A DNA stretch of 64,000 nt, from positions 1,922,001-1,986,000 of the forward strand of contig NZ_JACHVS010000001.1 of assembly GCF_014190875.1 (NCBI RefSeq), given 5' to 3'. Position numbers and translations under genes: made by a program. Below the pieces are notes generated by a model that was not told the origin of the DNA, did not search any database, and worked only from the letters and a program-made list of their open reading frames with translations. The stretch is from Paeniglutamicibacter cryotolerans. Its GTDB lineage: Bacteria > Actinomycetota > Actinomycetes > Actinomycetales > Micrococcaceae. The first letter of the stretch is position 1; each line of letters begins with the position of its first letter. Below, piece by piece: positions 45,173 to 51,345 of the stretch.

Positions 45173-46004
45173 CTCGATGAATGGGGTGGTTTGTCTCGGT
45201 TTAGGTTTAGCTTAACGGCGACGTGTCCCTCCCCTCTTGGCCGGTCAAATCCATCAACGGATGCAAGTAGCAATAGGCTAATAACGAGTGCCGGGCCCTG
45301 TCAAATCCATCCCTGCCCAGTGCTTCCGTGGCTGAATACAGCCAGTGGCAACCCCAGGCGACCAGGGGGAACCAAGCCTCATTCCGGACCAACAAGCTCA
45401 GGGGTCCGGTCCCGCGCCGAACCAACCTTTTCAGCGGACTGCATCAAGGTCCTGGACCACAAGGGTGTCGATGACCCCACGGGCAGGAACTTGCAGGTCA
45501 AAGCCCAAGCACCCGAGAACACCCGTTTCTTCAGCAGAACCGGCAAGGATCCGTGTGAATCAAGCGCCAGAGGTGTGCCCTCGGCCGCACCAGGCGGTTC
45601 TGCGGCGGCTTCCGTGCCGCGATGAGCGATTTTGCTGCGTTGCCAGGACCAGAACCGCACCAAGGAACTGACCGCAAGCATCGGCTACGAAGACTTCGAC
45701 TACTCATTGGTTGTCCCCTGAGGTAGCGCCTTTGCTTGTGGCAACCCGATGACCGCGATCGACAGCTCCTCGTCCCGGTGGGTCCACCGCCGGCCGGCAG
45801 GATCTGCCCGCCGGTGAGTCCGCTACGGCCAGGTCCCCGTTACCCCGGGGCATCCCGAGGGGACCATGCCGTAAGCCAGCGACCTCGCTTGGTTTGGTGC
45901 CCAACCCCTCCAAAAACCCCGGAAACTTGGGGATTTGATTTTCTCTGGAAGCAGTACTATATTTTTTGGCATGCGGGGGAGGAGAGCGAATTACCCCCAG
46001 ATTG

Positions 46005-46584
46005 AGGAAGCTGCAGTTGCTTCCTTTCGGGGGAACCCCGCATGGCAGTACCCGGCCGTCGGACAGCTTGAGACGGCCACCGCAGTAAAGAAGTGCCAGC
46101 AGTAAAGCAGTAGCCGGAGGGCGTGGTCGTCGGACAGCTTGAGACGACCGCAGCAGTACAGCAGTACAGCAGTACCAGCAACACCAGCAGTAAAGCAGTA
46201 GCCGGAGGGCGTGGTCGTCGGACAGCTTGAGACGGCCGCAGCAGTACAGCAGAACCAGTTACCCCGGCAATCAAGCAGTACCAGCAACACCAGCAGTAAA
46301 GCAGTAGCCGGAGGGCGTGGTCGTCGGACAGCTTGAGACGACCGCAGCAGTACAGCAGAACCAGTTACCCCGGCAATCAAGCAGTACCAGCAGTAAAGCA
46401 GTACCAGCAGTATCCGGCCGTCGGACAGCTTGAGACGGCCGCAGCAAAACCGGCAGTACCAGCAGTAAATCAGTAAAGCAGTACCCGGAGGGCGTGGTCG
46501 TCGGACAGCTTGAGACGACCACAGCAGTACCAGCAACACCGGTAGTACCTGCAGTACCGGGCCGTAGGACAGCTTGAGACGGCC
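46005..46584 (+). repeat. Array of seven covarying hairpins with CAGTA/CAGCA-rich linkers
   Basis: Hairpins at 46054-46078, 46125-46149, 46213-46237, 46319-46343, 46416-46440, 46496-46520 and 46560-46584. Each has a 7-bp stem and the same 11-nt loop GGACAGCTTGA. Stems alternate GGCCGTC/GACGGCC (copies 1, 5) and GGTCGTC/GACGACC (2, 4, 6); copy 3 has GGTCGTC/GACGGCC, a G-U pair on the plus strand; copy 7 has one end mismatch. Start-to-start spacing is 71, 88, 106, 97, 80 and 64 bp. Linkers are built from CAGTA/CAGCA/AAGCA pentamers and GGAGGGCGT. A small hairpin (46006-46024) lies at the left end. Not CRISPR: no constant spacing, no unique spacers, no cas genes. Confidence 0.85.
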
Positions 46585-46609
46585 ACAGCAGTAAAGCAAC
46601 ACCCTATGG

Positions 46610-46649
46610 GGCGGGCTAGAGATGGAGCTATATCCATCACTAGCCCGCC
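46610..46649. terminator. 17-bp stem hairpin closing the array
   Basis: Arms 46610-46626 and 46633-46649 pair except for one A-A position, with loop GCTATA. It lies 25 bp right of the last array hairpin. No T-tract. It could end a transcript of the array or bound the element. Confidence 0.6.
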
Positions 46650-47013
46650 TCATGCCGTTCGTGTCAAAGTTTGCATCGCTCACCAGTTGCGCGCACCAGG
46701 GCAGGAATCGGAGTTGACGCTCTCCAAGAGCTCACCCCTTGCCTCCTCGGGTGTTCCTCGGCCGCCCGCTAGAGCTTCCGCCTGGGGGTGGGGCATGGGT
46801 AGCAATGGCGTGAAATAGCGCGCCAGGTCACACGTGCCAGTTTGGGGTATACCCCAATCAGACGACAGGAGACGAGTTAACTACGTCTGGTTAGAGTAGT
46901 GCCCCGTAGAGTGGTGTAACACCCACCAGTGACCTGTACGTTCGTGAAACGGGCGCGGTCACCGTGGGTCCTTCGAGGAAACTCTCACATCCCACTCGAA
47001 AGGACATCTCACG

Positions 47014-49110: not shown

Positions 49111-51345
49111 CTATTCGTCGTCAGCTTCGTTTGTGCTCTCCGCGACGACCAGTTCGGCCTCGATCTGCTCTGAGTCTTGGACATCCTCGCCGACCTCGTT
49201 TCCTCGGTCATCTTCGCCAAGGCTGGCGCGGTATTCGTTGCGAACCTCCCAGAGCGACTTCCCAGACTCCTGGATCTTCCAGAATCGCCAACCATTGATG
49301 ACGCCCCGATACAGGCCGGTCGAGTTGGCAGCCACCCCCGCCGCGGACGGCGTGTCATAACCAACATCGTCGACGAACACGCGCCCGTCGAGCCCGACCG
49401 CGGCGGTCGCACCGTTCAGGACAGCGGGGCGAGCGACGAGCACGGTTCCCGGCTGAATGAGCCCCTCCGAGACAAGTAGCGCCAGGTCGACTTCCCCCGA
49501 AGCTTCAGGCTGGACCGGCTGCGTTGCGAGCCCAATATGTCCTGCTGGTGCAGGCCAAACCTTTAGGACCGACGCCGCGAGCATCGTCGTACGCGCAGTG
49601 ATCAGCGTCTCGTCCCAATTGGTCGGCGCGGACTGAATGACATCGTTCGTGAGGAGCACGTCGTTGATGTGCTGAAAGTGCTCTACCTTCTTCGACCATG
49701 ATCCGTTTGAAACCTTCGAATTCAGTTTCTGGGTCACTAAGGTGAGGTTGCCGAGTTCGTGCAGAGTGCGGTCGCGTGACGCCGCCTTCGTTTCGGCTTC
49801 GTCGGGCGACCATATAGCCGGCCAGTTTGCCCGCCACTTTTGAGGGAGTAAGTGCTCGACCGTACCGACCCCACGCGCGATCGGCCCCATACCGAGTGCA
49901 TTCCAATCAGGGTAACCACGGCGGTAGTCTTCGAGCGCTTCAAGGATCATTCGGAGTCGAGCACGGAGATACTTGTTGTATGCGGGCGCACCCTTCAGCG
50001 TCGAGGCGACCTCTGTGTCGTCCGGCCAGTACCCGACGGGCGTCTTGTTCGAAGCGAGGTAGGACTGGACTTCAATGGCCAGACGATCGTGCGGCTGCCT
50101 GCTGAGGTGGACGATGAGGTCGACCATGAATCGGTTTGTGCCCTGCGAGGGCGCTTTTACGATCGCGCGGCGGACGAACCAGCTTTCGAGGTACTTGAGG
50201 ATCTGGGTCTTGTCTTTTTCCGGAACATCGGATTGCGGCTCCTCATCGAGCCAGATCAGCAGCGGTCGCACGACCTCAGAATCGAGAGTGCCGACACGAT
50301 AACTGAACCATTGCACCCTCGTCAACGGACCGTTTACCGCTTGCGCCCCCTCGATGACGAACCGATATCTATCCGCAGCCGTCTTGATCTCCGGTAGCAA
50401 ACTGGACAGGTCGGGCCGCCTGTCGGTCACGTAGCCCTTGAATTGCGTGAATAGCTCTCGGATCGGGAAGTCTTCGAGCCGTCGGGCGCGCAGCCAGTGC
50501 CAGAGGAACCAGGACGCACGCGGGTGCGAGGTGCGTCCGGCCGTGACCTGAGTGACCCACCACGGACTCTCGAGTTCAGCCCAGTTACTGAGGTACGCGA
50601 CTTCGACTTCCGCTTCGGTTCCGGCGTGATTCTGGAAGATGAAGTTCTTGATGAGGTCCGCGGCGCTCAGCGGCTCGCCCCGTGCATTCAGCGTCTCAAA
50701 GATCGCCTGCGCATCCTCTGTCGCGTCGAGGCGAATGCTCACGATCTCAAGCTGACCGGACACGGCATCAACGAGGAGCTTCGCGCTGATCTCGAGCTCG
50801 TCCGCTTTGTCGAGCCACGCGCCGATGGAGTCGCTGAAGTACTGATGCGCCTCAGCGAGCCGCGACGGCACGACGCTCGAATAGTCAACCGGAGCAGGGG
50901 CGCTCATGACCGATTTGAATCCCGCCCGGTCGAGATTCGTCGGCCAGACCTTGTAGCGGTCCTCAGGCTTCTTGTGGAAGGCGGCCGGATTGACGATGAG
51001 CGGCTCGACCTGTGCCGCGAGCATTGCCAGACCGCGGGATTCAAGCTGCGAGTGAAGTGAATCGAGGAGGATCTGGAGCGTCGTGAGTCGCTGCTGACCA
51101 TCGATGACACTCCACTCCTGCATGGTGCCAAGCGTGGAAGGCAGCTGCTGTACGACGAAAGCGCCGAGGAAGTGCGTGGCGGCCGGGTTCTTCGTGGCCA
51201 GCACATCAGCGAGCCGCGCTATGTCCTCCCAGAGGGGCTGCCATTGCCGCTCCTTGGACCAGACGTAAGGGCGCTGGAAAAGTGGCACCACCATTCTTGA
51301 GGGCTGATAGAAGACCTCCCGTGGATTGACCTTTTCGGGCTTCAT
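49111..51345 (-). CDS. DUF262/DUF1524 (GmrSD-like) endonuclease with RAMA-like C-terminus
   Basis: 744 residues. The N-terminal DUF262 domain has the nucleotide-binding/hydrolysis motif VIDGQQRLTT (Asp82-Arg86). The DUF1524 HNH nuclease has VEHLLPQKW (His498) and LGNLTLVTQKLNS (Asn533). A C-terminal segment (about 640-715: GLIQPGTVLVARPAV, VGYDTPSAAGVAA, GWRFWKI) resembles the RAMA domain that reads or accompanies adenine methylation. GmrSD and BrxU relatives cleave modified phage DNA; specificity here is unknown. It stands alone, leftward, after a weak AAGG site. An acidic tail ends the protein. Domain fusion makes it a likely modification-dependent restriction enzyme. Confidence 0.85.
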   Translation of the reverse strand: MKPEKVNPREVFYQPSRMVVPLFQRPYVWSKERQWQPLWEDIARLADVLATKNPAATHFLGAFVVQQLPSTLGTMQEWSVIDGQQRLTTLQILLDSLHSQLESRGLAMLAAQVEPLIVNPAAFHKKPEDRYKVWPTNLDRAGFKSVMSAPAPVDYSSVVPSRLAEAHQYFSDSIGAWLDKADELEISAKLLVDAVSGQLEIVSIRLDATEDAQAIFETLNARGEPLSAADLIKNFIFQNHAGTEAEVEVAYLSNWAELESPWWVTQVTAGRTSHPRASWFLWHWLRARRLEDFPIRELFTQFKGYVTDRRPDLSSLLPEIKTAADRYRFVIEGAQAVNGPLTRVQWFSYRVGTLDSEVVRPLLIWLDEEPQSDVPEKDKTQILKYLESWFVRRAIVKAPSQGTNRFMVDLIVHLSRQPHDRLAIEVQSYLASNKTPVGYWPDDTEVASTLKGAPAYNKYLRARLRMILEALEDYRRGYPDWNALGMGPIARGVGTVEHLLPQKWRANWPAIWSPDEAETKAASRDRTLHELGNLTLVTQKLNSKVSNGSWSKKVEHFQHINDVLLTNDVIQSAPTNWDETLITARTTMLAASVLKVWPAPAGHIGLATQPVQPEASGEVDLALLVSEGLIQPGTVLVARPAVLNGATAAVGLDGRVFVDDVGYDTPSAAGVAANSTGLYRGVINGWRFWKIQESGKSLWEVRNEYRASLGEDDRGNEVGEDVQDSEQIEAELVVAESTNEADDE

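Follow-up and report, generated by a model that had tools for sequence, protein, structure and literature searches.

A candidate non-coding RNA gene made of hairpins with a conserved loop in Paeniglutamicibacter cryotolerans and related Micrococcaceae

A 64,000-nucleotide stretch of the Paeniglutamicibacter cryotolerans genome (called the window here) carries seven 25-nt hairpins on the plus strand between positions 46054 and 46584. What kind of element is this string of hairpins, is it selected as RNA or as DNA, and what could it do? A preliminary description, made from the letters of the window, proposed a structured non-coding RNA array selected on the plus strand and also named a REP/BIME-like element and a protein-binding array. 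We addressed the question by comparing the array with its counterparts in related genomes.

The hairpin array and its relatives

With a 17-nt core and up to three mismatches allowed, seven matches were found in the window, against a mean of 0.21 and a largest count of 2 in 100 dinucleotide-preserving shuffles of the window. Because none of the shuffles reached seven, the array is not a product of chance, and the seven described copies of a 25-nt hairpin were confirmed. The 11-nt loop, GGACAGCTTGA, is identical in all seven (Table 1). The paired stem changes reported for copies 1 and 5 and for copies 2, 4 and 6, and the single plus-strand G-U pair of the mixed copy 3, are as claimed. One correction concerns copy 7, where the closing pair is broken. 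The stem of hairpin 7 occurs in 9 of the 112 units of this hairpin type (called A here) that were counted, and hairpin 7 folds less well than the other six (z of −1.7 compared with −2.6 to −3.4).

Table 1. Features of the array and of its predicted transcription unit, in window positions.
Feature	Position	Strand	Evidence or properties
Sigma-70-like promoter (predicted), TTGATT-N17-TATATT	45935..45963	+	Sequence scan, conserved in relatives
5′ leader hairpin	45970..46044	+	−39.3 kcal/mol, z −4.0
Hairpin 1, GGCCGTC-GGACAGCTTGA-GACGGCC	46054..46078	+	Core matches, folding
Hairpin 2, GGTCGTC-GGACAGCTTGA-GACGACC	46125..46149	+	Core matches, folding
Hairpin 3, GGTCGTC-GGACAGCTTGA-GACGGCC, one G-U pair	46213..46237	+	Core matches, folding
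Hairpin 4, same as hairpin 2	46319..46343	+	Core matches, folding
Hairpin 5, same as hairpin 1	46416..46440	+	Core matches, folding
Hairpin 6, same as hairpin 2	46496..46520	+	Core matches, folding
Hairpin 7, GGCCGTA, closing pair broken	46560..46584	+	Core matches, folding
Inter-hairpin linkers	46079..46559	+	39–81 nt each, CAGCA/CAGTA-rich
3′ hairpin, terminator-like, without T-run	46605..46654	+	50 nt, −38.8 kcal/mol, z −7.3

The linkers are poor in T (11% compared with 19% in the window). The hairpins follow one another at spacings of 71, 88, 106, 97, 80 and 64, and the common spacings in the relatives are 46, 45 and 37. A 230-aa open reading frame runs across the array region on the minus strand; because the spacings are mostly not multiples of three, here and in the relatives, it is not convincing as a gene. 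CRISPR arrays have regular spacing with unique spacers. Spacings of 64–106 and repetitive linkers do not match that pattern, and we agree with the earlier statement that the array fits no CRISPR.

Of 395 Micrococcaceae genomes, at least 18 have the same layout of promoter, leader, hairpins and 3′ hairpin, on chromosomes and on plasmids. At E ≤ 0.001, 35 of the 395 genomes were matched, 18 of them with arrays and 17 with short weak matches. The figure of 18 is a lower bound, with the best two candidates per genome scored; one array of genome G050 was missed and was seen in later searches. The own genus (clade 1) is represented by 15 genomes, six of which have arrays; the other 12 array genomes fall into three further genus groups (clade 2). 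An array holds 4 to 16 hairpins (27 arrays), and a genome carries one to three arrays. Named plasmids of Arthrobacter sp. TMP15 and A. alpinus A3 bear arrays, as do chromosome-sized contigs. P. cryotolerans itself has a second copy of the array on contig C5, which also holds a third array with four hairpins (L020).

The loop had been described as invariant. This is true of the window and largely true elsewhere, with 91 of 112 eleven-nt A loops exact and 32 of 33 exact in the ten-nt variant, but the relatives also have other loops. Clade 2 contains a second hairpin type, B (CCGTC-AAGCAGTAGGA-GACGG), which often alternates with A; B units were not seen in the arrays of clade 1. A third loop, AGAGCACAACA, heads two arrays (L248 and L253) of genome G106, in which the stems are A-like with one changed pair, A-T for G-C (both read by eye). 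Genome G192 also has a degraded second leader with one A-type hairpin, some 200 nt past its 16-hairpin array (L062:10471-10590).

An exact-pattern search of representative genomes of all phyla gave at least 119 stretches; among the matches listed, 11 hold at least two hairpins, and all 11 come from Arthrobacter or Paeniglutamicibacter records. The order-wide search with a hairpin model matched 56 of 396 genomes at E ≤ 0.01. Among the best 19 candidates per genome, clusters were seen only in G000 and G106, and the other 54 genomes, among them all those matched outside the Micrococcaceae, gave one or two near-threshold matches each. Phage records gave no match, and viral contigs gave 25 stretches, each a single core match and none within an array. 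Neither the window nor four relatives matched Rfam 15 at the gathering score; a relaxed threshold gave two chance-level matches below it. In a Limosilactobacillus fermentum plasmid, a stretch annotated as a hypothetical gene (L022:1001-1125) is weakly similar to the array, at 75% over some 125 nt, perhaps reflecting repeat composition.

Structure, strand and predicted transcription unit

The stems of 50 distinct A and a units were compared with shuffles. Of the stem cells, 94.6% are paired (90.3% in shuffles), 14 cells are changed on both sides (5.2 in shuffles), and the covariation score is 0.240 (0.170 in shuffles); in each case, none of 500 shuffles reached the observed value. Two measures were weaker: both-side changes affect five of the seven stem pairs, a value that 7 of 500 shuffles also attained, and the number of further pair types is 11, attained by 110 of the 500. 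When the partner was slid by 1 to 3 columns, every covariation measure fell. Among the 112 A units, the rate of change per base is 0.019 in the loop and 0.087 in the stem, so that loops change 4.5 times less often. Loops are less variable than stems and stem changes remain largely paired, in support of the structural interpretation of the preliminary description.

Both strands of the array fold far better than shuffles (z of −6.1 for the plus and −7.7 for the minus strand), and folding energy alone does not tell the strand. The tolerated mismatches do. The stem cells of the 50 distinct units include 28 G-U, 9 A-C and 10 other mismatches (binomial p of 0.003 for 28 compared with 9; the unit rows are related by descent, and p values are guides only). 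Over all 145 units, the counts are 76 G-U and 11 A-C, and over 18 distinct B units, 5 and 0. Because G-U is tolerated more often than A-C, selection acts on the plus-strand RNA. By this comparison among relatives, made at the level of sequence, we could show a conserved unit, its hairpin structure and the strand on which it is selected; the view that the array is under selection as plus-strand RNA is supported.

A promoter of the form TTGA..-N17-TATATT lies upstream of 26 of the 28 arrays scanned. No promoter of this sigma-70-like kind was found for L020, the third array of the own genome, or for L140, which lies at a contig end. Hairpins do flank the array, as had been described, with the correction that the upstream one (46006-46024) is merely the tip of a larger leader hairpin. 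In the window, this leader has an outer helix CATGCGGGG/CCCCGCATG, an inner helix CCCCC/GGGGG and a tip GGAAGC/GCTTCC. The clade-2 leaders have an outer helix AACGG/CCGTT and an inner helix TTCCCC/GGGGAA, and the clade-1 helix sequences differ from these. The leader is conserved inside each clade, and a joint alignment of the two clades does not fold; that the clade-1 and clade-2 leaders correspond is our reading.

Each of the 16 distinct clade-2 arrays examined (loci L018, L019 and L060-L072) has the motif GAACGGAAGTTC in its leader; no clade-1 locus has it. The motif resembles the actinobacterial LexA box. Its halves also form part of the leader helix, and no LexA-like box was found upstream of umuD in two plasmid loci. 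The conservation of GAACGGAAGTTC may only reflect the RNA helix rather than LexA control.

At the other end, the 3′ hairpin covaries in 7 of its 17 pairs, which are changed on both sides among 22 relatives' sequences. Because it has no T-run and the terminator scan did not pick it up, termination at this hairpin is something that we only infer, as we do transcription itself. Promoter, leader, seven hairpins and 3′ hairpin likely form one transcription unit. The existence of an RNA gene is well supported on sequence grounds: the stems covary, G-U exceeds A-C, and promoter, leader and 3′ hairpin accompany the arrays in relatives, in line with the plus-strand structured RNA first proposed.

Genomic surroundings and possible mobility

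The segment 42423-46873 of the window and the copy on C5 have 4,457 bp in common at 99.1% identity. This duplicated 4.46-kb segment lies between two genes, one IstB-like and the other for a transposase of the Mutator/IS256 type. Between the subgroups of clade 2, similarity usually reaches about 115–200 nt upstream of the first hairpin core, which is the promoter region or slightly beyond, and about 45–110 nt downstream, around the 3′ hairpin. Within clade 1, and inside single subgroups, the arrays have longer flanks in common. Neighbouring genes differ between loci, and the most widespread ORF group occurs in 7 of 24 loci, at varying places. The genes umuC/umuD lie convergent downstream of the array in four loci (L019, L060, L066 and L069), two of them on named plasmids; umuDC is annotated in L018 and L019. 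The window also encodes a GmrSD-type restriction protein with a RAMA domain on the minus strand (49111-51345).

In clade 2, a 480-bp segment precedes the array at eight places and partially at a ninth; in the 18 array genomes, it was found only beside arrays. In the seven copies printed, its left end bears a GAACGCTCTGCGGGA-like motif. The right end is TGTCCGTAGCGGGAAC or a near variant in four copies (two in L063, one each in L065 and L067), and it differs from TGTCCGTAGCGGGAAC in L062, L068, L070 and L072. Taken together, the two end motifs look like an imperfect palindrome, TGTCCGNNNNGGGAACGCTNTGCGGGACA. With up to three mismatches allowed, 8 of 11 genomes contain this palindrome, at 11 places in total, compared with 0 in the reversed control; there is none in the P. 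cryotolerans genome. The array-bearing segments of L062, L063, L065, L067, L070 and L072 start at parts of such a palindrome. One of the TGTCCGNNNNGGGAACGCTNTGCGGGACA places adjoins a resolvase-type gene, and in L068 a resolvase-like ORF follows the array at a distance of about 200 nt. These observations suggest that the 480-bp segment and the palindromic ends mark a mobile cassette of about 0.8–1.5 kb, of which the TGTCCGNNNNGGGAACGCTNTGCGGGACA-like palindrome is perhaps the site. The mobility of the array unit, too, is an inference.

Possible function of the RNA

The reading that we prefer, with a probability of about 50%, is that of a stand-alone, accessory non-coding RNA gene whose product acts in trans and whose repeated loops bind a partner many times, as a sponge or a scaffold. 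The sigma-70 promoter would give rise to a transcript of about 690 nt that opens with the leader hairpin, continues as a string of hairpins on flexible linkers and ends at the long GC-rich hairpin. The hairpins would display near-identical 10–11-nt loops, and by multivalent binding in trans these could catch a single kind of partner, most probably a protein, in many copies. The dose would be set by the number of hairpins, 4 to 16 in each of the one to three arrays of a genome. Plasmids and chromosomes would carry the RNA as accessory cargo, and so, perhaps, would small cassettes in part of one clade. A trans-acting multivalent RNA fits because the loops are fixed, the stems freer, the copies many, the linkers flexible and the hairpin number variable, with no fixed neighbour. 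The sponge or scaffold role and the identity of the partner are conjecture, and no partner protein was found. The protein-binding array named in the preliminary description is possible. To our knowledge, multivalent sponge RNAs are known mainly for CsrA.

Several described RNA families share features with the array. CsrB/CsrC and RsmX/Y/Z are sponge RNAs with repeated GGA motifs that titrate a protein (PMC9037510), and the array, as a predicted stand-alone RNA with repeated GGA, is like them. The antitoxin RNAs of type III toxin-antitoxin systems (ToxI, CptI and TenpI) are tandem repeats with a promoter and a terminator and were first found on a plasmid; the array resembles them in its tandem RNA repeats, promoter and terminator-like end, whereas its hairpins are variably spaced, unlike the 36- and 45-nt pseudoknot repeats of those RNAs (PMC4627078). 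No toxin gene was seen directly downstream of the arrays among ORFs that are partly identified; the nearest downstream ORFs differ between loci and are a convergent umuC in four. The ToxN family (PF13958) matched none of the 18 array genomes, and control genomes also gave no match. With no toxin gene directly downstream among those partly identified ORFs, the antitoxin reading is not supported. ANTAR-target RNAs, which are predicted in Arthrobacter, likewise place neighbouring stem-loops on one RNA, but these are dual, with six-base loops (A1, G4) and linkers of 2–25 nt, whereas the arrays have 4–16 hairpins with loops of 10–11 bases and, in the window, linkers of 39–81 nt; loop size and linker length fall outside that definition (PMC8164766), and this reading is not supported.

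The REP/BIME-like reading of the preliminary description is not supported. In 17 array genomes, the hairpin model gave 162 matches at E ≤ 0.3, and all those listed, from the best 150 candidates per genome, lie inside arrays. REP and BIME elements are repeated palindromic units scattered between genes through the genome. The array shares the repeated palindromic units and differs in having its own predicted promoter and 3′ hairpin, with no scattered units among the matches listed.

Other explanations start from the loops or from the surroundings of the array. An RNA decoy by which a mobile element occupies some factor of its host, for example a defence nuclease or an RNA-binding protein, would suit arrays that are plasmid-borne, multi-copy and, in clade 2, set in a cassette-like segment. 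We nevertheless consider it unlikely, since no defence or anti-defence gene common to the loci was seen among the partly annotated neighbours, and phage records and viral contigs held no arrays. Kissing between loops, with A loops (GCUU) pairing with B loops (AAGC) or with one another through AGCU, could build RNA dimers or networks. The A loop GGACAGCUUGA and the B loop AAGC(A/U)GUAGGA do have four complementary bases, and the two unit types frequently alternate in clade 2; yet four pairs are few, clade-1 arrays yielded no B unit, and the A-loop variants GGACCGCTTGA and GGACAGTTTGA weaken the palindrome, so that we hold such assembly to be improbable. It is more improbable still that the array serves as DNA, either binding protein or forming single-strand hairpins for transfer or replication. 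Arrays on plasmids and the ability of both strands to fold would agree with this, and the excess of G-U over A-C on one strand, the promoter conserved on that same strand and the arrays on chromosome-sized contigs all argue against it.

A CsrB/RsmZ-type sponge for CsrA draws on the GGA in both A and B loops and on the distribution of csrA, which was found in 11 of the 18 genomes with arrays and in 112 of the 372 others (Fisher p of 0.009, assuming that all 18 are among the 390 genomes surveyed). In that survey, 122 of the 390 Micrococcaceae genomes have a csrA above the Pfam cut-off. However, no csrA was found in the other 7 array genomes, including G230 (1 contig) and G297 (2 contigs), and there is no excess within the own genus (5/6 compared with 7/9, one of these seven being below the cut-off with an internal stop). 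The consensus of a CsrA site is ANGGA. In the loops (UCGGAC in A, UAGGAG in B), the base two before GGA is a U in place of the A, and the array further differs from CsrB and RsmZ in being accessory and in having two loop types in clade 2. Given the seven array genomes in which csrA was not found and the loops without ANGGA, this reading is not supported, and we give it very little credence. The lowest rank goes to an antisense RNA with many identical seed loops, which we regard as highly improbable. The loops are conserved and probably exposed, as it would need, but the exact 11-mer complement of the A loop occurs outside arrays at 48 places in the 18 genomes, compared with 29 for the control, and among 20 of these 48 exact sites no two had a similar gene or similar DNA. 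Such an absence of a shared target does not support the reading.

The preferred trans-acting, multivalent RNA may be taken one step further, tentatively and with the odds against it, to a mobile gene with RNA as its sole product. A small cassette with recombination-site-like ends would carry a promoter and a multivalent hairpin RNA and would have spread among Arthrobacter and Paeniglutamicibacter. Its loop types might capture a host factor, or each other, in favour of the element, and its hairpin number would be tuned by tandem gain and loss.

We found no description of the element in the published open-licence literature, by topic or by hairpin and loop sequence. A separate and modular RNA family in Actinobacteria, apparently mobile, with stems that covary and without an Rfam model, would indicate an unrecognised RNA-binding partner, and the repeated loop offers a ready bait in the search for it.
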